This document shows, piece by piece, positions 11,901 to 56,229 of a DNA stretch of 64,000 bases. Position 1 is the stretch's first letter; each line of letters starts with the position of its first letter. Made by a program: the position numbers and the translations under genes. The stretch is from Acetobacter syzygii (lineage in GTDB: Bacteria; Pseudomonadota; Alphaproteobacteria; Acetobacterales; Acetobacteraceae), in NCBI RefSeq assembly GCF_000964225.1, contig NZ_BAMZ01000007.1, forward strand, positions 1 through 64,000, read 5' to 3'. Below the pieces are notes generated by a model that was not told the DNA's origin, made no database searches, and saw nothing but the letters and a program-made list of their open reading frames with translations.

Positions 11901-12930
11901 GCAGGGTATGTCTGACGAGCGCTCATCCCACCTGCGCCAACGTCTGTTTTCAGGCGGGCTGCATATGTTCATGCAGCCGGTTGTTGACCTGCGCACGGGC
12001 CGGTTGCTCAAGGTTGAAGCGCTGGCAAGACTGAAGGATGCCGACGGAACAATCCTCTCTCCAGGCACGTTTCTGGCGCTGCTTGGGCATGATGAATTGG
12101 ACAGATTGTTTGAGAGCGGGCTGGAACAGGGGTTGGCATGGTTGCAATCGTGGGATGCCAAAGGGCTGTCGACTGAATTATCGCTTAACCTGCCTCCTTC
12201 ATGTCTGTCGAATACCAATATCCTGAGCATGGTCAAGGATATGCTGGATCGTTATCATATTACGCCCAACCGGCTGACGCTGGAAGTGCTGGAAACGCAG
12301 GATATAGATTCCGACAAGCAGGAAGCTGCTTTACGAGACTTCCGGGCAATGGGCGTGCAAATGGCCATTGATGATCTGGGAGCCGGGCATAGCAATCTGT
12401 TGCGGTTATCAGCAACAGCATTTGACTGCATTAAGGTTGATCGGGGGCTACTGCGGCATATTCGTGAGGTACCGTTACAGATATTCAGCGTTGTTCGGTC
12501 CTTGCGGGAAATGGGTAATGATCTGCACAGTCAGGTCGTGGTCGAAGGATTGGAAGACGCCGATATTATTGAGGCCATGCGTCATTTAGGCTGCCGTTAT
12601 GGGCAGGGGTTTGGTATAGCGCGCCCTATGCCGCCGGATAATTTTCTGGATTGGTATCTGGTTAATGCCGAACAGGAGCCGATGGAGGAAGAGACTGCAA
12701 TCCATAGCGATCTTGGGGCCTTGGCTTACATGTGGGCCGCAACCCGTGGGCAGCCTGTAGCTGGGCTGTATCACTTGGAAAATGGGCCATTAATACAATG
12801 GTTCAAGGAACTGGCTCGTAAGGATAGTGATGCAGCACAGTGGCATGTTCTGCTCTCTGCTGGGCCTGTTCCCGAAGAGGTCGTTCGTCCATTGCGCGAG
12901 TGGCTGGTTGGTCGTGTGGTCCGTTCCTAG
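8902..12930 (+). CDS. Large multidomain GAF-GGDEF-EAL cyclic-di-GMP protein
   Basis: A 1342-residue soluble protein that may make or break down cyclic di-GMP. Order of domains: a GAF domain (about 25-195), a PAS-like segment (about 205-305), a second GAF (about 310-480, with the repeated LPLWRAGKVWAVFGVY / VPVWRGGQVWAVLTF theme), GGDEF (about 490-650, motif GGDEF at 576-580), an unassigned helical segment (about 690-850), a third GAF (about 855-1000) and EAL (about 1010-1260). The GGDEF active site is intact, but the inhibitory RxxD is replaced by RENG. In EAL, the E of VEAL (about 1039), the N of LNLP, DDLGAGHSN, IKVD and the VVEG glutamate are all present, so phosphodiesterase activity is likely. 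The ATG at 8902 has a GGA about nine bases upstream; a TTG at 8875 is less likely. No transmembrane segment is seen, so sensing is cytoplasmic. Confidence 0.87.
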   Translation: MRLLRPLLPASRRLTTLAEAALDGMQRKTLERLNGFNAFLARVGMAVDPAQDEATLFHAACESATRNARLKAAFIAQPDDKGDFHLLASSGPIAQLHKPAFSASADMPARYGLIGRVWHGGQSLFCVNVEEEADLQPWRALMLKQGVRSCAALPLWRAGKVWAVFGVYDEQDDVFDPAIRTILQDAATALSRGLKIYDELRSRAAQLDRSQVGIMLLHDARIQRANTFAAGLVGCAPSDMHNALAETILASKAYGPHMERAQEQLRKTGRAKLSGVHLPKPDGHDVIVDLSAVTLDDSSGSESVWTMEDVTEREEAQRLYSALINAVSAMLSAEDQVEKCHAVCSILVDNTLFSAVWLAQADPSAHMRVFSHAGKGGSAVARLNWPVEPKGSALPVTVRAWLKRKLVYTNNPADDLVGINGYQNVLDYKWRGILSVPVWRGGQVWAVLTFVTQRVYGFDKKSITLCQRVADLLGQSLDRLDTNHNLEKLRHEEAQRARRDSLTALPNRLALEEYLPKAQERASERGTSLAIGLMDLDGFKAVNDTYGHAAGDRVLAELSQRLWEALRENGYVARMGGDEFVVVLENLDSATANEQAAAMLDSLSSVVAEPFTVEDGKTAKVGLTMGVVLYPQDGDKPASLLRRADQAMYKAKQSPDKSAANWHFAAALEDALDLEDDAATDLFPIAPYGIKAVELLGRAHKAATKIRESVRKGAIPAIWKKSGGALFLSHLTQDQHERLIDREALHLEFLVDAATIRKDVLASAHTLGTMYALFGVDPVVFVAEQTAYLRLLLAELENEHVGSDDRYLIQQIVEARYRDDRRMRRLVRLGVHKAYSAFLSCNIAEGTWGEASADALSTLAKLPGIQAAFLVQSNIADELVALAAAGPCATALDEALLRGDARPVITRSQYGSFIGAHTWRQGERRSYPSIEKDSGMAPWHTLLANLRIHSAMSVPIRRQDGSTALVLNLFGACPNQFESAEMQQFATGLQEKWETLWRDRQGMSDERSSHLRQRLFSGGLHMFMQPVVDLRTGRLLKVEALARLKDADGTILSPGTFLALLGHDELDRLFESGLEQGLAWLQSWDAKGLSTELSLNLPPSCLSNTNILSMVKDMLDRYHITPNRLTLEVLETQDIDSDKQEAALRDFRAMGVQMAIDDLGAGHSNLLRLSATAFDCIKVDRGLLRHIREVPLQIFSVVRSLREMGNDLHSQVVVEGLEDADIIEAMRHLGCRYGQGFGIARPMPPDNFLDWYLVNAEQEPMEEETAIHSDLGALAYMWAATRGQPVAGLYHLENGPLIQWFKELARKDSDAAQWHVLLSAGPVPEEVVRPLREWLVGRVVRS

Positions 12931-48529: not shown

Positions 48530-49279
48530 TCAGGCCTGAGCTACACCCATACTGCTTACGGCCTGATAGGTGGCAACGGCAAGCGTTAAGGGGTCGAATG
48601 GCTTGGTAATGACAAAACAGGGTTCCAGCTTTTCGCCGGTCAGCAGCCTTTCGGGGTATGCGGTTACGTAAATGACCGGTACTTTAAAAGTGGCTGTAAT
48701 CTCAGCGACAGCTGCCATACCGTCCCCTCCGGGCCCCAGATTGATGTCTGCCAGAATAAGGCCGGGTTTGGTTTGGGCTGCAAGTTGTATGGCATCAGCC
48801 TGTGTATGGGCAATACCTGCAACCTTGTGACCACATTGCAGTACAAGCAGTTCAATATCCATGGCAATAATCGGCTCGTCCTCAATAATCAGGACGGATG
48901 TCTGCACACCTTTGTGAAGCTGCTTTTGGGCCGCTTCCAGCTCCTGCACGGCCTGTTCGTGCTGTAGGCCAATAATGCGGCCTGCAATCTCCACGTTCAC
49001 TTCTTCGAGTGTGGTCAGCAGCAGTAACTGCCGCTGGATGGGGGAAAGTCCAGGCCCTTGGGTGCTACGCTGCACCTCGTGCGTGCCATAAAGGCGCGAG
49101 ATTGCCTGATAAAGCTGGAGCAGGGGGGTAAACCCTTCCGCCGGGGGTTGAGAGGTCAGGCCCCTCAGGCTTTCCGCAACAAGCAGGTCACCTTCTGGCT
49201 GGTTGCCAGTCAGGGCGCGTGCATAACGTCTGCCATAAGGGAGAGCCCGGATCAGCCCGTCACGCAGTGACTCTGACAT
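48530..49279 (-). CDS. phyR: General stress response regulator PhyR
   Basis: A 249-residue PhyR-type regulator. Residues 1-110 form the sigma-like domain (RALPYGRRYARALTGNQPEG, then LLLLTTLEEVNVEIAGRIIG) and residues 125-245 the receiver (LIIEDEPIIAMDIELL; phospho-acceptor Asp at 178 in ILADINLG; T206; K226 in ITKPFDP). On phosphorylation PhyR exposes its sigma-like domain and sequesters the anti-sigma factor NepR, releasing the EcfG sigma factor. The ATG at 49279 has AAGGAG seven bases upstream; a longer frame opens at 49378 but does not fit. The gene is divergent from the sigma factors, as in other Alphaproteobacteria. Confidence 0.93.
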   Translation of the reverse strand: MSESLRDGLIRALPYGRRYARALTGNQPEGDLLVAESLRGLTSQPPAEGFTPLLQLYQAISRLYGTHEVQRSTQGPGLSPIQRQLLLLTTLEEVNVEIAGRIIGLQHEQAVQELEAAQKQLHKGVQTSVLIIEDEPIIAMDIELLVLQCGHKVAGIAHTQADAIQLAAQTKPGLILADINLGPGGDGMAAVAEITATFKVPVIYVTAYPERLLTGEKLEPCFVITKPFDPLTLAVATYQAVSSMGVAQA

Positions 49280-49400
49280 GACAAATCTCCTTATGATTAG
49301 GTCATGGTAAAAACATACGGTAAAGCAATGATGCCACGGAGCGGCGATTGCCGAAAGGGGATGAATCCTGATTAACACACCAAATCCCGATCATGGTGAC

Positions 49401-49913
49401 GTGCGTTTGGTCTTTCGGACCGAATTGCTGGCACTTTTGCCCTCCCTGCGCGGCTTTGCGCGTTTTTTGGCGCGGGAGCCTTCCATGGCGGATGATCTGG
49501 TGCAGGAAACCGTTTTGCGGGCATTGGACCGCATGGCGCAGTTTGAGGTCGGGAGCAGCCTTAAAGCATGGTGTTTTACAATCCTGCGTAATATTTTTCT
49601 GGAGCAGCGCCGGCGTGGCAAAAAAGAGCAGGAAGTGCTGGAGCATTATGGGCAGCACTCTCCTCATCGTGCGCCACCTTCCGCAGATGGGCGGCAGGAG
49701 GTGCAGGAGCTGGAAACCCTGTTATGGCAGCTAACGCCGCTACTGCGAGAAGCGCTGGTGCTGATTGGTGCGCAGGGCATGACGTATGGTGAGGCGGCTG
49801 AAATTTGCGGTGTGGATGTGGGTACGATCAAGGCCCGCGTTTCTCGCGCCCGGTCCATGCTGCACAGATTGACCCAGCAGCAGGTAGGAGAAGGCGAGGC
49901 TGGTCCTGAGTAA
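49401..49913 (+). CDS. EcfG-like general stress sigma factor (first copy)
   Basis: An ECF sigma factor of about 170 residues. Region 2 is seen in FLAREPSMADDLVQETVLRA, then SLKAWCFTILRNIFL, and region 4 in EALVLIGAQGMTYGEAAEICG with the VDVGTIKARVSRAR helix. It lies divergent from phyR, as the EcfG partner does in other Alphaproteobacteria. The start is unusual: the GTG at 49401 has no ribosome site, whereas an ATT at 49371 in the same frame has AAGGGG about ten bases upstream and would add ten residues; either could be used. There is a second, slightly different sigma gene 100 bases downstream, and the anti-sigma gene follows that. Confidence 0.82.
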   Translation: MRLVFRTELLALLPSLRGFARFLAREPSMADDLVQETVLRALDRMAQFEVGSSLKAWCFTILRNIFLEQRRRGKKEQEVLEHYGQHSPHRAPPSADGRQEVQELETLLWQLTPLLREALVLIGAQGMTYGEAAEICGVDVGTIKARVSRARSMLHRLTQQQVGEGEAGPE

Positions 49914-50016
49914 TTGCCGCTCTCTTTTTCGTGATAATAAAAATAAGACCCGCATGTAACCTTTTGGTGCTGTCGTTCATTGCTTGCATAAACGGAAGAA
50001 GAGCGGAGTAAAAACA

Positions 50017-50619
50017 ATGACAGCGACAGCCTCGTTATTCCACGATCAGGTAATTGCCATTCTGCCCAAACTGCGCGTGCAGGCTCTGGCTTTGACCCGC
50101 AACCGTACTGCTGCGGAAGATCTGGTGCAGGACGCCGTTTGCAACGCTCTGGCTGCACAGGAAAGTTTTATTCCCGGCACCAATTTTGGGGCATGGATGC
50201 ACCGTATCCTGCGCAACCGCTTTATTTCCGACCTGCGCAAAAAACGCGAGACCACGGACATTGATGATGCTCCGCAGTCCATGCTGGCAGTCGCAGCCCG
50301 ACATGATGACCGGTTGTCCCTGATGGAGTTGGATGCAGCACTTGCACGTCTGCCAGACGACCAGCGGGAAGCTTTGGTGCTGGGGGTTCTTGAAGGAATG
50401 AGTTATCAGGAACTGGCAGAAATTTCTGGCTGCGCGGTGGGTACGGCCAAAAGTCGGGTTTTCCGCGCCCGGCGGCAGTTGGAAGTCTGGTTAACTGGAG
50501 AAGAATCCGCCTCTGAGGTGAGTGGTCGGCAAAAAGGTGATCATGCACAGGCAAAGGCGGCAAAAAACACTGGCTCTGCGCGATTGGCTTCTTCTCGCAT
50601 GAGTGTTGCGGCAGTCTGA
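50017..50619 (+). CDS. EcfG-like general stress sigma factor (second copy)
   Basis: A 200-residue ECF sigma factor. Region 2 is the LTRNRTAAEDLVQDAVCNAL segment followed by NFGAWMHRILRNRFISDL, and region 4 is LVLGVLEGMSYQELAEISGC with VGTAKSRVFRARRQL. The tail of about 35 residues is longer and basic (DHAQAKAAKNTGSARLASSR). The ATG at 50017 has GCGGAG eight bases upstream; a TTG at 49984 is poorer. It shares a plus-strand run with the first sigma factor, the NepR-like anti-sigma gene and a histidine kinase. Two EcfG-type genes in one locus suggest two target sets or partial redundancy, both probably inhibited by NepR. Confidence 0.87.
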   Translation: MTATASLFHDQVIAILPKLRVQALALTRNRTAAEDLVQDAVCNALAAQESFIPGTNFGAWMHRILRNRFISDLRKKRETTDIDDAPQSMLAVAARHDDRLSLMELDAALARLPDDQREALVLGVLEGMSYQELAEISGCAVGTAKSRVFRARRQLEVWLTGEESASEVSGRQKGDHAQAKAAKNTGSARLASSRMSVAAV

Positions 50620-50723
50620 GCATGGCGTATGCTGAGCTTGCAAGGTGCAGGTCTGCGGGGAATGAATTGCCTGCCCCGCAGGTAGTGGCGTCAGGCGAAC
50701 AACGGCAGGACCATAAGTTCGGA

Positions 50724-50897
50724 ATGGGAAAGAGTATGGACGGTGCTCCCCCTCGCAAGGGCAGGCAGTCTCGGGATCAGGCGTTTGATGTCTGGCTGAA
50801 GCGCGGCTTGCACCAGCTTTTTGATGATGTCGTGAATGAACCTGTGCCTGAAGAGCTTTTGAAGTTGATTGAGCAGGATCGGGACAAGCAGGACTGA
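50724..50897 (+). CDS. nepR: NepR-type anti-sigma factor
   Basis: A short protein of 57 residues (or 53 from the ATG at 50736, whose GGGAAAGAG is the better ribosome site; the frame is open up to 50622). It has the NepR core: a helix with DVWLKRGLHQLFDDVVNEPV, then PEELLKLIEQ, which binds the sigma factor in the unstressed cell and PhyR-phosphate when stress is sensed. It follows the second sigma gene and precedes the kinase by five bases. It is easily missed because of its size and because the upstream residues are not part of the family. Confidence 0.88.
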   Translation: MGKSMDGAPPRKGRQSRDQAFDVWLKRGLHQLFDDVVNEPVPEELLKLIEQDRDKQD

Positions 50898-50902
50898 GCC
50901 GT

Positions 50903-52672
50903 TTGCTTTTCTTTTCATGGTCGGGCCGTGTGGCCCGGCGCGTTGGTGCTGCACTTATGTCCGGTCTGGGCAGGGTGTTCATAACCACCAGTGCCCGTAT
51001 GCGGGTGTTAATCTGTCTATCGGGTATTCCCGTACTGAGCATTGGTGCGGTTCTGGCCTTGCGCAATTATCAGGAAGTCAAGGTAGGCAGCGCCCAGCGT
51101 GCGGTGGCCGCCATTATGCGGTTGGACCAGCAGTTTCGCCACGATACGGATCGCCTGCGCAGTGCGCTGGAAACAATCGGCAACATGGATCTGACCCACG
51201 ATCAGATTGTCCATGCGCTCAAACTGGCTGAGACGATTAGTGGCCAGCGCTACTGTTTTTTGGCTGTTCTGAATGAAAAAGGGGAGAAAATAGATTCTGT
51301 CTCTCCTTCCGGTCGTTCCTGTGCAGAGGTTGGCACTTTAACGCCTCCTGCACGCATTAACGCGACTGTTATGGAAGCCGTACAAAAAAGCGGCGGTGCG
51401 GAAGATAATGGGGCGTTCCTGCGTATAACAGTGCCTGCGGCTTTTCTGGCAGACCCGGAGGCGCATGGGTATCTGGTAGGAATTCTACAAATTTCGCGCA
51501 CACGGGCGTATTTGGGTGGAGCTTCCGGGTGGGAGGCTTTTTCGGATGATACAAACCCAGTGCAGGCATGGCTGTTAATGCACGATGGGGAGTTATTCCC
51601 TGTTTGTACAAACTGTAATTGGGAGCAGCCTCCCCCAGAGCTGGTGTTCCGTTTAAAAGAACAGCTGGAAAAAAGTGACCGCTCGGTTGTGTCTCTCCCA
51701 TCCATGCAGGGAGGGTATGCGCTGGGTGGCATTGCGGGTGGTGCGGATATTTTTGTGTCCACCCAACGTACCCCCATAGAGGCGGATGCTCTGCGAGCGA
51801 TGATTTTTCAGATCGCAGCACTGTTGTTCCTGTTAGCCGCTGGGCTGATCGGGGTCACACTGGCCGCCAACATTGTGTTGGTATGGCCATTGCGGCGTCT
51901 GACGTATTCTGTGCGCAAATGGCAGATGGAGGGGGTGTTTGACGGTCGGGTGACCCGGTCCATGCCCTTGGAGCTTCAGCGGCTGGGGCAGGCTTTTACG
52001 CGTGCTACGCAACGTTTGTCCCGGCATGAGGCGCGGTTAAAAAAAGCCATGGCGCACCAGGAACTGCTGATGAAGGAAATTCATCATCGGGTGAAGAATA
52101 ATCTTCAGATCGTGGCGTCTTTGCTGAACTTGCAGGCCAACCAAATTGCACACCCGGAGGTCAAGGCAGAGTTTGCCCTTGCGCGTGACCGAATCCGGGC
52201 GCTGGCAACCCTGCATCGCACCCTGTACGCAGAAGATACGCTGACCAGCCTGAACATGGCAGTGTTTCTGAAGGATCTGTGTGAGCAGACATTCCATATA
52301 GCGGGAGAAGCCGATGCAGGCCGTATTCGGCTTGAGGTAGAATCAGACAGCTTCTGGATGGACCCGGATCAGGCTGTACCTCTGGCCTTAATTGTGACGG
52401 AAGTTGTTACCAACTCGATCAAATATGCCTTTCCGGACGATCGGGAGGGGATTATTCATGTGCGTCTGACAAAAAATGGCAATCTGGTTACACTGCTTGT
52501 CGGTGATAACGGTGTGGGATGCTCATTCGACCCCGCGTCTGGTACGCAAGGGATCGGTCTTAAGCTCATTCATGGTTTTGCCAGACAGCTTAAGGCATCT
52601 TTGAGCTATACTGGCAAAGATGGCGTGCAGTTTACGCTGGTGATGCATCTGGATAAAGCGCAAAACCCATAA
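50903..52672 (+). CDS. Membrane histidine kinase of the HisKA_2/HWE type
   Basis: A 589-residue sensor kinase. There is a first membrane helix at about 35-53, a periplasmic sensor domain (about 55-290, with two pairs of cysteines such as CTNC near 238), a second helix at about 300-322, a HAMP-like segment, the HisKA_2 dimerisation domain with phospho-acceptor His394 (EIHHRVKNNLQIVASLL) and an ATPase domain with NSIKYAF and GDNGVGC. Kinases of this kind phosphorylate PhyR in other Alphaproteobacteria. The start is a TTG with AGGA nine bases upstream, five bases after the nepR stop, so translation is probably coupled. The periplasmic part suggests sensing of an envelope or redox signal. Confidence 0.87.
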   Translation: MLFFSWSGRVARRVGAALMSGLGRVFITTSARMRVLICLSGIPVLSIGAVLALRNYQEVKVGSAQRAVAAIMRLDQQFRHDTDRLRSALETIGNMDLTHDQIVHALKLAETISGQRYCFLAVLNEKGEKIDSVSPSGRSCAEVGTLTPPARINATVMEAVQKSGGAEDNGAFLRITVPAAFLADPEAHGYLVGILQISRTRAYLGGASGWEAFSDDTNPVQAWLLMHDGELFPVCTNCNWEQPPPELVFRLKEQLEKSDRSVVSLPSMQGGYALGGIAGGADIFVSTQRTPIEADALRAMIFQIAALLFLLAAGLIGVTLAANIVLVWPLRRLTYSVRKWQMEGVFDGRVTRSMPLELQRLGQAFTRATQRLSRHEARLKKAMAHQELLMKEIHHRVKNNLQIVASLLNLQANQIAHPEVKAEFALARDRIRALATLHRTLYAEDTLTSLNMAVFLKDLCEQTFHIAGEADAGRIRLEVESDSFWMDPDQAVPLALIVTEVVTNSIKYAFPDDREGIIHVRLTKNGNLVTLLVGDNGVGCSFDPASGTQGIGLKLIHGFARQLKASLSYTGKDGVQFTLVMHLDKAQNP

Positions 52673-52772: not shown

Positions 52773-54494
52773 ATGAAGAACGAGAAAGCAGCAATACGTA
52801 GCTGGACGCGCCTCCAGTCACGTCTTGGTCGTCACGCAGCGCGATCAGTGGTTGGGTCCGGGCTGCTCTCCAGTCTTGCTGGTATTGGGCAGGCTTGGTG
52901 TGTGGCCGTTGTTCTTGGGCACGCTCTTGTGGCGTGGCGTGTGGGGGGGCAGGAGAGCATTTTCCCTGCATGGCCTTTTCTGGTGTTTCCCGCCCTGGCG
53001 ATTGTTCGCGCCCTTTGCATGATCAAGGCGGATATGGCGGCCGCACAAGCTGGAATTATAGCCCGCAGGCGTTTGCGTGGCGAGGTCATGACCTCCATTC
53101 TTGCCGGTGGTCCAGCATTGCTGCGCCGTACTCATAGCGGTGCCCTTGCTTCGATCGTGGTGGACCGCATAGAAGCGCTGGATGGTTTTTTTGGTCGCTG
53201 GGTGCCTGCTTCGGTTTTGTGGATTGTAGCGCCGTTGGCTATTTTGGTGCCTGTTGGCATTGCGCAGCCTCGGGCAGCCCTTATTCTGGGTATATGCGGC
53301 ATAGTGGTGCCTTTTGGGCAGGCCGTGTTTGGCATTGGCGCCGCAGTTGCATCCCGCAACCAGTTTCTGGCCATGACGCGGCTTCAGTCCCGCTTTCTGG
53401 ACCGTATTAAAGGTATTGCCACCATTGTTCTGGCTGGCCGTACGGAGGATGAGACCCGTAGGCTCGGTGCTGCGGCGGAGGAGTTGCGACTGCGGACAAT
53501 GAAGGTGCTGCGCGTGGCATTTTTATCTTCTGCATCCATTGATTGCGCCATGGTCGCGGCGTTTATTCTGCTGGCTGTTTTGGATGGCCGTCAGGCGCTG
53601 GCCATGCAGGCAAATGGTCAGCTGGAGGGCTTGCAACCCATGGTGGTTGCAAGCCTGTTTGCTCTGCTTGCTGTGCCAGAGTTTTTTGCTCCACTCCGTG
53701 GTCTGGCGCTTGCTTATCAGGATCGGGCTCATGCACAGGGTGCCGCAACGGCTATTCTGGACCTGCCGGATGTCATTGAACGACCCGTGCTGGAAGGGGC
53801 CAGAACGGTTAATGCCAATGGCGTTATGGTCGCGTTTGATGATGTCGGTTTTACATGGGACCCAGCCCGTGGCCCCGCGCTGGAGCATGTTAGCTTTACC
53901 GTTCCGGCAGGCGAAACTCTGGTCATGGCAGGGGCTTCTGGCGCCGGTAAATCGACCATTATGGAATTGTTGCTGGGCTTTATTACGCCCCAGACCGGCC
54001 GCGTGCTGTTTAATGGAGCGCCGCTGGAGAGCATTGTGCCGGATGCTCTTTCTCGCGTGGTATCATGGATCGGGCAGAAGCCGGTTCTGTTTGCTGGGTC
54101 TTTGCGGGATAATATTCTTTTTGCCAAGCCGGATGCCAACGAGGCGGAACTGGCCAATGCCCTGCGGTCTGCCGCCGTTGATGAATTTTTACCTTCCTTG
54201 CCCGATGGGTTGGATACGCAGATAGGCGAGGGAGGTTTTGGTCTTTCTGGGGGGCAGGCCCAGCGTATTGCCATTGCACGCGCCTACCTGAAAAACGCAC
54301 CAGTCCTGCTGCTGGATGAACCTACCGCTCATTTGGACCCGGCAACAGAGAAAAGCGTTTTTGAAAGTCTGCAACGTCTTGCTGTTGGCCGTACCGTTAT
54401 TCTGGCTACGCACTCTGCTGCGGCACATATGTTCAAGGGCCGCCGGATAGACCTTCAGAATGGGCGTATAGTAAGTCGGCAGGGGGCTGCATAA
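52773..54494 (+). CDS. cydD: CydD, ABC exporter subunit for cytochrome bd assembly
   Basis: A 573-residue ABC exporter half with six membrane helices in the first 310 residues and an ATPase domain (Walker A GASGAGKSTI; signature LSGGQAQRIAIARAYL; Walker B PVLLLDEPTAHLDPA). With CydC it exports cysteine or glutathione to the periplasm and is needed for assembly of cytochrome bd. The cydAB genes for the oxidase itself are not in this window. The ATG at 52773 has no clear ribosome site but fits the family start. It is one base before cydC, which shows the usual cydDC operon. Confidence 0.88.
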   Translation: MKNEKAAIRSWTRLQSRLGRHAARSVVGSGLLSSLAGIGQAWCVAVVLGHALVAWRVGGQESIFPAWPFLVFPALAIVRALCMIKADMAAAQAGIIARRRLRGEVMTSILAGGPALLRRTHSGALASIVVDRIEALDGFFGRWVPASVLWIVAPLAILVPVGIAQPRAALILGICGIVVPFGQAVFGIGAAVASRNQFLAMTRLQSRFLDRIKGIATIVLAGRTEDETRRLGAAAEELRLRTMKVLRVAFLSSASIDCAMVAAFILLAVLDGRQALAMQANGQLEGLQPMVVASLFALLAVPEFFAPLRGLALAYQDRAHAQGAATAILDLPDVIERPVLEGARTVNANGVMVAFDDVGFTWDPARGPALEHVSFTVPAGETLVMAGASGAGKSTIMELLLGFITPQTGRVLFNGAPLESIVPDALSRVVSWIGQKPVLFAGSLRDNILFAKPDANEAELANALRSAAVDEFLPSLPDGLDTQIGEGGFGLSGGQAQRIAIARAYLKNAPVLLLDEPTAHLDPATEKSVFESLQRLAVGRTVILATHSAAAHMFKGRRIDLQNGRIVSRQGAA

Positions 54495-54495
54495 T

Positions 54496-56229
54496 ATGAT
54501 AACGCAAGACCACGCGGCACAAAAGCCAACGACTGCGCAGGCCATAACCGGCACTCCCCATCATGCCGCAGGATTAACCGACTGGCAGGCTATTTGCGTC
54601 ATATTCGGTCTGTGGCGCAGGCAGGCTATGCGGCTGTTTGTGGGGGCTTTGCTGGCTCTGGCTGCTCTGGCCTGCGGGCTTGCGCTCATGCAGGCATCTG
54701 GTTTGCGTCTGGCTGGGTGTGTTCTGGGTGAACTGGTGGTCACAACGGCTCTGCTTCGCTGGGTGGGTGTGGGGCGCGTGACCTTGCGTTATGCGGAGCG
54801 TCTTTTTGCGCATGATGCAATGTTCCGTGCTCTGGCCGATCTGCGGGTATGGTTTTTCCATTCTCTGGCACATGGAGCTGCTGCGGGGCTTGGTTTCCGC
54901 CGGGCAGGGGATATGTTGTCCCGCCTTGTGTCCGATATTGGTACGCTGGACGGATTGTACCTGCGTATTGTGGTTCCTCTGGTCTGTGCGGGGCTGACCT
55001 TTCCGGCACTTCTGGTTATTATTGGGCGGCAGAGTCTTGCGCTTGGCCTTTGCGTTGGCTTGCTGTTCGCCTGTGCTGCTTTTCTGGTGCCATGGTTGAT
55101 TGCACGGTCTGGCCAAAAAGCCGCTGATCAAGCGGCTCATCTGCTCGCCCATTTGCGTATTTCCGTGTTGGATCTGGTTGGTGGCCTGCGCGAAATCCGC
55201 GCTTTTGGTGCGGAAGGGCGGATGCTTGCCCGGGTTCAGGCGGCGGATGCCGCTTTGTTACAGGGGCAGATGGCACTTGCCCGGCGCGCCGCTTTTGCCA
55301 ATGCGCTGGCTTTTTTGTTCGGGCAGATGGCTATTTTTCTGGTGTTGCTGGCCGTTGGCGGTGTCATGCTCCCCAAACTTCATGCGTTGGAGGGGGTGAG
55401 CATTCTGTTCCTGAGCGTTGCTGCGTTTGAAAGTGCGGTGACACTGACGCGGGCAGGGTTACAGGCCGGGATTATGGGGGCTTCTGCTAGCCGTGTGGTG
55501 GAAATGGCAGTGCAGCCTGCTGCCGCTCATGCGCAGACTGCGCAGAAAGATGCCCCAGAGGATACCCACATCCGGCTGGACAATGTGCACTTCCGGTGGG
55601 CGGAAGACAGAGCTTGGGTTTTAAAGGGGTTAACACTGGATATTCCCGCCGGGAGTCGTGTGGCCATTCTTGGGCCTTCCGGTGTTGGTAAATCTAGCCT
55701 TGCGGCGCTGTTGCTACGGGCAGCGACACCACAGACCGGTCAGATTCTTTTGGGGGGGGAAGATATAACAACCCTTCGGGCAGACTCTGTGCGTACTAAA
55801 ATGGCATGGCTTTCTCAGGCTACGCATTTGTTTGACGATACTATTCGCGCCAACCTGCTGTTGGGACGCCCGGATGCCACGGAAGATGAACTGTGGAAAG
55901 CTCTGGACGAAGCTGCCGTATCGGAGGTGGTGCGGAACTTGCCTGAAGGGTTGGATACGTGGCTGGGCGAAGGGGGGATTCGTCTTTCTGGTGGTCAGGG
56001 GCGACGTATTGCGTTGGCCCGTACATTGCTGGCACCCGCACCAATTCTTATTCTGGACGAACCTGCGACCGGGTTGGATGCCCAGACTGAGCAGGAATTT
56101 CTCCGGACATTGAATGCTGTAACCGAGGGGCGCACGGTTATTCTTATCGCCCACCGCCTGACTGGCGTGGAAAAGCTGGACCGGATATGGCGTCTGTCGG
56201 ATGGCTTGGCCAAAGCTGCGGCGGCATAG
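54496..56229 (+). CDS. cydC: CydC, ABC exporter subunit for cytochrome bd assembly
   Basis: A 577-residue partner of CydD with six helices and an ATPase domain (Walker A GPSGVGKSSL; signature LSGGQGRRIALARTLL; Walker B LILDEPATGLDAQ). The ATG follows the cydD stop by one base and has AGGGGG upstream. A G8 tract at 55752-55759 lies near the ATPase domain and stays in frame. The pair exports thiols across the inner membrane, which matter for haem and disulfide chemistry in the periplasm; a link to cytochrome bd rests on homology. Confidence 0.88.
   Translation: MITQDHAAQKPTTAQAITGTPHHAAGLTDWQAICVIFGLWRRQAMRLFVGALLALAALACGLALMQASGLRLAGCVLGELVVTTALLRWVGVGRVTLRYAERLFAHDAMFRALADLRVWFFHSLAHGAAAGLGFRRAGDMLSRLVSDIGTLDGLYLRIVVPLVCAGLTFPALLVIIGRQSLALGLCVGLLFACAAFLVPWLIARSGQKAADQAAHLLAHLRISVLDLVGGLREIRAFGAEGRMLARVQAADAALLQGQMALARRAAFANALAFLFGQMAIFLVLLAVGGVMLPKLHALEGVSILFLSVAAFESAVTLTRAGLQAGIMGASASRVVEMAVQPAAAHAQTAQKDAPEDTHIRLDNVHFRWAEDRAWVLKGLTLDIPAGSRVAILGPSGVGKSSLAALLLRAATPQTGQILLGGEDITTLRADSVRTKMAWLSQATHLFDDTIRANLLLGRPDATEDELWKALDEAAVSEVVRNLPEGLDTWLGEGGIRLSGGQGRRIALARTLLAPAPILILDEPATGLDAQTEQEFLRTLNAVTEGRTVILIAHRLTGVEKLDRIWRLSDGLAKAAAA

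Follow-up and report, generated by a model that had tools for sequence, protein, structure and literature searches.

The stretch of DNA analysed here, hereafter the window, comprises 64,000 nucleotides of Acetobacter syzygii (Acetobacteraceae; NCBI RefSeq assembly GCF_000964225.1, contig NZ_BAMZ01000007.1, positions 1 to 64,000), and the subject of this report is a compact general stress response locus at positions 48530-52672 in which two genes for EcfG-type extracytoplasmic function (ECF) sigma factors, referred to as ecf1 and ecf2, stand in tandem. An initial annotation had placed phyR, two EcfG-type genes, nepR, and a HisKA_2 kinase gene within 4.1 kb, and all five were recovered at this place, together with two non-coding features:

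48530-49279, minus strand: phyR, encoding an anti-anti-sigma response regulator with a sigma-like and a receiver domain (NF006623, Response_reg, PhyR_sigma2; ATG at 49279 taken from the sequence)
49354-49360, plus strand: Shine-Dalgarno-like AAAGGGG of ecf1, read from the sequence, 7 nt ahead of the CTG (7-9 nt in relatives)
49368-49913, plus strand: ecf1, first EcfG-type sigma factor (proposed CTG start at 49368-49370)
49955-49982, plus strand: ECF-type promoter-like element ahead of ecf2 (dyad search, matrix, and held-out scan)
50017-50619, plus strand: ecf2, second EcfG-type sigma factor (ATG start)
50622-50897, plus strand: nepR, anti-sigma factor (Pfam NepR; ATG at 50622, an inner ATG being possible)
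50903-52672, plus strand: PhyK-like HisKA_2 sensor kinase (start at TTG 50903 or ATG 50957)

The product of phyR scored 277.5 bits against NCBIfam NF006623 (cut-off 240) and exceeded the cut-offs of Pfam Response_reg and PhyR_sigma2; its score against the PhyR_sigma-like model was under the cut-off (22.3 vs 27). ECF1 and ECF2 each contained Sigma70_r2 and Sigma70_r4_2 above the Pfam cut-offs, and PhyR_sigma2 (cut-off 27) matched ECF1 with 42.3 bits and ECF2 with 26.5 or 28.2 bits in two runs. NepR was recognized by its Pfam model at 31.0 bits (cut-off 25.7), the model covering residues 61-85, and did not reach the stricter NCBIfam model (32.6 vs 100). The kinase scored 82.4 bits for HisKA_2 (cut-off 22.3) and fell under the cut-off of the PhyK equivalog NF051872 (166.6 vs 750 bits). 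With 38% identity over 151 amino acids, ECF1 and ECF2 are two different EcfG-like proteins, as had been proposed. The best solved-structure match of both was the same chain, 5uxx_A, which we take to be EcfG bound to NepR, and in the tree described below the ECF1 group lies beside EcfG; the possibility raised at the outset that the first gene encodes an unrelated ECF sigma factor is thus disfavoured. Judged by regions 2 and 4, the closest chain, the tree, and the phyR/nepR neighbourhood, both are predicted to be EcfG-type (ECF15) sigma factors. When the source genome (2.68 Mb) was queried with ECF2, ECF1 was found at E 2.4e-22 and the next match after the pair at E 2.6e-5; the closest named matches of ECF2, 89% identical, were those of Acetobacter okinawensis and A. 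fabarum.

To establish how widely this arrangement is shared, 150 genomes of the family were searched with ECF1, 119 of which matched; 80 loci, one per genome, were drawn from among the matches listed and combined with the window into a family set of 81, and a second, named set of 70 loci (L228-L297) shares 12 genomes with the first. phyR, ecf1, ecf2, and nepR occurred together in 64 of the 81 family-set loci (the kinase being present in 49 of these) and in 63 of the 70 named loci (58 with the kinase), in the common order of a divergent phyR followed on the opposite strand by ecf1, ecf2, and nepR; both sigma genes were close together in 67 family-set loci. Named loci with the pair belong to Acetobacter, Gluconobacter, Acidomonas, Ameyamaea, Endobacter, Brytella, Nguyenibacter, Acidisphaera, and relatives. 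The remaining seven, all from Gluconacetobacter, had no ecf1 there, and when their genomes were searched in full no protein more than 39% identical to ECF1 was found. A class-wide sample of 142 genomes, 53 of which had a match, contained the pair in two further genomes, both of other families (G235, G214).

In a tree of 133 sequences, in which the bootstrap had not settled and some rows were long, ECF1 and two genes from other families formed one group of 43 rows (99/93), and ECF2 with its other-family counterparts formed another of 41 rows (100/98). The ECF1 group stood beside the EcfG rows, with the other EcfG rows outside it, and the ECF2 group stood among the EcfG rows; end branches were longer in ECF1 and short in ECF2. 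Nine loci of the same family (L094, L102, L103, L105, L108-L110, L112, L117) carry one canonical EcfG that falls into a tree group of its own (100/99). A recent local duplication as the source of ecf1 and ecf2 was rejected, since the two belong to two old tree groups and share a common gene order across loci; the tandem is of old standing and common across the family rather than an odd local copy.

Several other EcfG-type copies and locus forms were seen in the course of these comparisons. The seven Gluconacetobacter loci (L250, L252-L255, L259, L260) have a phyR-ecf2 gap of 326-375 bp between the homology ends, with ecf1 missing, and share another common stretch around CGTCATGATTAAAAC...CATTACACTG ahead of ecf2. 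One genome (G043) has a split locus, with phyR-ecf1 on one contig and ecf2-nepR-kinase on another (L386 and L393), the latter with a weaker element (15.1). Among 20 stretches around other EcfG-like copies in the family, 17 were without a listed PhyR- or NepR-like match and three had one (L397, L402, L409), and four loci (L417, L418, L419, L421) carry an ECF2-like gene whose retrieved surroundings contain neither phyR nor nepR.

The canonical EcfG promoter, GGAAC-N16/17-CGTT, had been reported as absent between phyR and the first sigma gene, and this holds: the window contains the exact pattern once, at 12046, where chance alone would give 0.71 occurrences. In the 400 bp ahead of phyR, the pattern was present in ten of 15 one-EcfG loci of other families and in five of eight one-EcfG loci of the same family, or 15 of 23 in total, and in none of 69 and none of 70 loci of the two-sigma type in the two sets (shuffled means 0.04-0.4 over these comparisons); the two-sigma counts take in loci with one sigma gene present, including the seven of Gluconacetobacter. 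It occurred in two of 65 ecf1-ecf2 gaps and two of 64 ecf2-nepR gaps (shuffled mean 0.1). A canonical promoter at the phyR end of two-sigma loci was therefore set aside as a candidate, exact scans being positive in the control loci and negative here. Across the source genome, GGAAC-N16/17-CGTTG gave six matches against 25 for a reversed-pattern control, without enrichment; in some other genomes of the family matches exceeded the control, which has a composition bias. Because GGAAC-N16/17-CGTT was not found at two-sigma loci, we regard the locus as a variant of the EcfG switch. By eye, the phyR-ecf1 gaps of L045, L047, L049, L050, and the Gluconacetobacter loci contain boxes resembling GTTAC-N17-CGTTA, possibly an ECF-type promoter.

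The gap between the two sigma genes holds a different and conserved signal that goes beyond the initial annotation. A search for spaced word pairs found GCAA-N18-CATT in 45 of 65 ecf1-ecf2 gaps (shuffled maximum 6), and a matrix derived from 50 gaps read (GAT)GCAACC-N13-TTCATTG, equivalent to GCAAC-N17-CATT; 49 of the 50 share this spacing. The copy in the window consists of GTAAC (49956-49960), N17, and CATTG (49978-49982), 34 nt ahead of the ATG of ecf2. Among the tandem loci of the family set, 58 of 67 had an element scoring at least 12 between ecf1 and ecf2, a figure that is partly circular, since 50 of the 65 first-set gaps went into the matrix; all 63 named tandem gaps had one too, and of these the 51 (51/51) from genomes outside the first set serve as the check; stretches of the same length ahead of ecf1 reached this score in one of 67 and none of 63 loci. 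In the named loci, the distance from the end of the element to the start of ECF2 homology was 22-52 nt in all but two of the 63, which have 130 nt, and the first box was GTAAC in 22 of 26 Acetobacter loci. The second box is CGTT in L055, L085, L107, and L118, which ties the element to the -10 box of the canonical promoter. For Sphingopyxis, a nearly invariant AAC in the -35 box and a variable -10 box are described, in the portion of that paper covered here (PMC7083833).

The start of the first sigma gene had been described as weak, and comparison with relatives points to the CTG at 49368-49370. No in-frame ATG, GTG, or TTG lies near the domain in 22 of 140 ECF1 genes, against none of 138 ECF2 and none of 139 phyR genes. 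A CTG stands 7-9 nt after AAAGGGG, GAGG, or AAGG in 27 of 28 Acetobacter genomes, the exception (G117, L075) having GTG at that place, and is equally spaced in all 20 Gluconobacter genomes; the codons alongside it vary. The start rule admitted ATG, GTG, TTG, and CTG with a Shine-Dalgarno sequence 7-9 nt upstream, so that the exclusivity of CTG is partly built in; independent support came from the fact that zero genomes failed the rule and from alignments, in which the CTG fell into a single column for 18 of 19 Acetobacter rows, all 12 Gluconobacter rows, and all six Komagataeibacter-/Gluconacetobacter-like rows. In four Komagataeibacter-like loci (L045, L046, L049, L050) the rule finds no CTG, though a CTG is aligned there. 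The assignment covers Acetobacter and Gluconobacter; elsewhere the best-ranked codon varies. Within this scope, ecf1 appears to be read from a conserved and normally poor CTG start; CUG is a poor initiator with Escherichia coli ribosomes, as stated in the part of the source consulted (PMC11497404).

The two sigma factors also differ from other EcfG proteins in fixed ways. Relative to 18 EcfG sequences of other families, the 39 ECF2 rows carry near-fixed replacements that include Q in place of F in LRAFA (97%), R in place of T in FTILRN (97%), an R directly following ILRN (100%), and, in the GTxKSRVxRAR helix, F where the others have S or N (95%); in that helix the 41 ECF1 rows have A where S is usual (98%). 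Going by other ECF sigma factors, the changed segments presumably contact the -10 and -35 boxes. Across eight species pairs, the ratio of nonsynonymous to synonymous substitution rates (dN/dS) was 0.07-0.15 for ecf1 and 0.01-0.13 for ecf2, beside 0.02-0.12 for phyR, 0.03-0.06 for the kinase gene, and 0.07-0.34 for nepR; both sigma factors are under purifying selection. The suggestion that the two copies reflect either specialisation or one being derived is accordingly narrowed: specialisation is likely, and neither copy is simply derived, each having its own fixed residues and being under purifying selection.

Given these patterns, we favour, with a probability of roughly 0.6, a two-sigma variant of the PhyR-NepR-EcfG switch that combines a translation-throttled seed sigma factor with a second, ECF-driven operon. 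As judged from the protein families, the kinase would phosphorylate PhyR, PhyR would take NepR off the sigma factor, and the freed EcfG-type sigma factor would direct RNA polymerase; we infer that NepR binds both ECF1 and ECF2. ECF1 would be the seed, present at a low level and independently of the response, because no canonical EcfG promoter precedes ecf1 and its start is apparently CTG. ecf2 and nepR, probably with the kinase gene, would form an operon behind GC/TAAC-N17-CATTG, and this element would be switched on by a freed EcfG-type sigma factor (ECF2, ECF1, or both), constituting an amplifier that includes feedback through NepR. The arrangement thus suggests a low-dose starter with an amplifier. 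More tentatively, the CTG may act as a translational fuse, the dose of ECF1 following initiation fidelity, in conjunction with a shift of promoter code that goes with the fixed changes in the recognition segments of ECF2. If the fuse is real, the dose of ECF1 would be tied to IF3 and the state of the ribosome, a convergent counterpart, in another phylum, of Streptomyces SigR; if the code shift is real, GGAAC/CGTT would have become GCAAC/CATT in the acetic acid bacteria.

Which sigma factor reads the element is the point on which the competing explanations divide, and the genomes without ecf1 bear on it from both sides. ECF1 might be the only activator of ecf2, in a strict cascade like that of Sphingopyxis granuli, an account that we consider unlikely. 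It would fit a genus of 14 genomes in which the element tracks ecf1, being found in all seven genomes with the gene and in none of the seven without it, as well as five further genomes (G020 and four others) that have an ECF2-like gene, in four cases with neither phyR nor nepR in the retrieved surroundings, and no ECF1 and lack the element, and it would also fit an ecf1 without a canonical EcfG promoter. Weakening it, the seven Gluconacetobacter genomes may have lost gene and promoter in a single deletion, G129 and G082 among the five are only 73% complete, and G028 and G115, which are without ecf1, keep the element (20.6 and 19.7) amid diverged spacers. Those two genomes favour instead, without making it other than doubtful, the converse account in which ECF2 is the sole general-stress sigma factor and reads its own promoter, ECF1 serving a separate, NepR-independent small circuit that has been kept at the locus. 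The adjacency of ecf2 to nepR, the short end branches of ECF2, and its fixed changes in segments that we assume to lie at promoter DNA agree with that account; the absence of the element from 12 of the 14 ecf1-less genomes with an ECF2-type gene and the retention of ecf1 between phyR and ecf2 in 63 of the 70 named loci do not. A third genome of the genus of G028 and G115 (G300) has ecf1 and the element (19.3), with a second ECF2-like copy that has no element. For the two-sigma switch preferred here, in which either or both sigma factors may read the element, these genomes are themselves a difficulty: the two that keep it argue against ECF1 as the only reader, and the 12 that lack it argue against ECF2 alone maintaining it.

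Two further explanations concern the element and the start codon themselves. It is improbable, in our estimation, that the element serves ecf2 as an operator or as a signal in its mRNA leader rather than as a sigma promoter. In favour of this, no strict match in the source genome other than the ecf2 copy both avoids long frames and closely precedes a suitable gene start; against it stand the two short boxes, each one base from GGAAC and CGTT and separated by a constant 17 in 49 of 50 gaps, and the CGTT second box in a few loci. Similarly small is the chance that ECF1 begins elsewhere, at an upstream ATG or an inner ATT or GTG, the CTG being a conserved leucine codon. Some species do have an in-frame upstream ATG or TTG, and of the other candidates in the window the ATT at 49371 is well spaced too, with the GTG at 49401 lacking a Shine-Dalgarno sequence. 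A ranking by Shine-Dalgarno energy across 140 loci favoured CTG in 53 loci and ATT in 19 besides the window, and outside the named genera the best-ranked codon varies. Against a start elsewhere, the upstream codons in Acetobacter precede the Shine-Dalgarno sequence and are not shared, nor is the ATT; several species have no ATG, GTG, or TTG near the domain; and CTG occupies the aligned site everywhere except in L075 (GTG), with one pair of loci having CTG in L060 and TTG in L061. The plain energy ranking, which picks ATT for the ecf1 of the window, nonetheless counts against the seed-and-amplifier interpretation, as do the nine of 67 tandem loci without a good copy of the element, the pair of the other-family genome G235 (L188), which has a canonical GGAAC-CGTT match upstream of ECF1 and a poor element copy, a scan of 49 Acetobacter genomes with TGTAACCN{16}CATT that gave 78 matches in 37 genomes against 64 for the control, and the outcome of the scans outside ecf2, which gave no clear regulon, strict matches lying mostly inside long reading frames.

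In the source genome, TGYAACN{16,17}CATTG gave seven matches against four for the control, and of the six outside ecf2, five lie within reading frames of at least 315 amino acids. TGCAACN{15,16}TCATTG gave 88 matches in 62 of the 150 family genomes, in excess of the six of the reversed-pattern control (genomes listed), with 18 at the ecf2 gap among the matches listed. Of the 88, 29 were inspected as new loci; five were ecf2 gaps, and among the other 24, by a crude test, 20 fell within frames of at least 300 amino acids and four outside long frames (L133, L141, L148, L155). A second pattern match in G006 lies within a helicase-like reading frame. In L141 and L148, strict element copies stand 29 and 90 nt ahead of ATG frames with signal-peptide- or lipoprotein-like starts, and these frames are possible further targets of the element.

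The locus shares its partner-switch genes, the divergent phyR, and the HisKA_2 kinase with the PhyR-NepR-EcfG response of Caulobacter, Methylobacterium, and Rhizobium, and it differs in the tandem sigma genes of most family members sampled, in the canonical promoter, which was not found, and in the GCAAC-N17-CATTG ahead of the second sigma gene. A parallel is S. granuli TFA, in which, according to the portion of the paper covered, the EcfG that lacks an EcfG promoter is constitutive and has the other under its control; EcfG1 and EcfG2 lie at one locus and one of them alone has an EcfG-type promoter, as here, but the genes are divergent, the promoter is canonical, and that portion notes no non-standard start or altered promoter code (PMC7083833). 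EcfG1 and EcfG2 of Rhizobium etli (PMC3892343) and EcfG1-6 of Methylobacterium extorquens (PMC4814048) are paralogues described, in the sections covered, as having partly separate roles, and neither a response regulator gene nor an anti-sigma gene lies close to the second copy of R. etli (PMC3892343). For the start codon, the parallel is Streptomyces sigR, the GTC start of which is repressed by IF3 and, when replaced, leads to overproduction of sigma over anti-sigma factor (PMC5472188, in part). Both are stress ECF sigma genes with a strong Shine-Dalgarno sequence and a conserved non-standard start (GTC in 32 of 34 species there, a proposed CTG here), and ecf1, as predicted, would share with sigR a conserved start other than ATG, GTG, or TTG; the differences, going by the same part of that source, are the phylum, GTC rather than CTG, the anti-sigma factor RsrA, and IF3 control, which has been shown for SigR (PMC5472188). 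Hierarchies of two EcfG factors and a non-standard start on a stress sigma gene (sigR) are thus already known. In the open-access literature, with subscription papers outside the scope, nothing was found on the EcfG/PhyR/NepR locus of acetic acid bacteria, although a paper on a bee symbiont mentions EcfG a single time, and in the main texts the word Acetobacteraceae is absent from PMC3892343 and Acetobacter from PMC4814048.

Should the two-sigma reading be correct, the stress regulon of acetic acid bacteria, which include vinegar, cellulose, and insect-associated species, could not be found via the canonical promoter, and the start of the first sigma gene would be easily misannotated. The reason for the persistence of EcfG duplicates would become directly testable, as would the question of whether, beyond a single phylum, the choice of start codon determines the dose of sigma factor relative to anti-sigma factor.

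Two observations concern the surroundings of the system. Six small genomes of about 1.9-2.2 Mb (G029, G032, G061, G066, G070, G101) had no ECF1-type match at E 1e-8, and the general stress response may have been lost in genome-reduced family members. Directly after the kinase gene, at 52773-56229 of the window, lie two tandem genes resembling those of ATP-binding cassette transporters, which by eye are cydDC-like.

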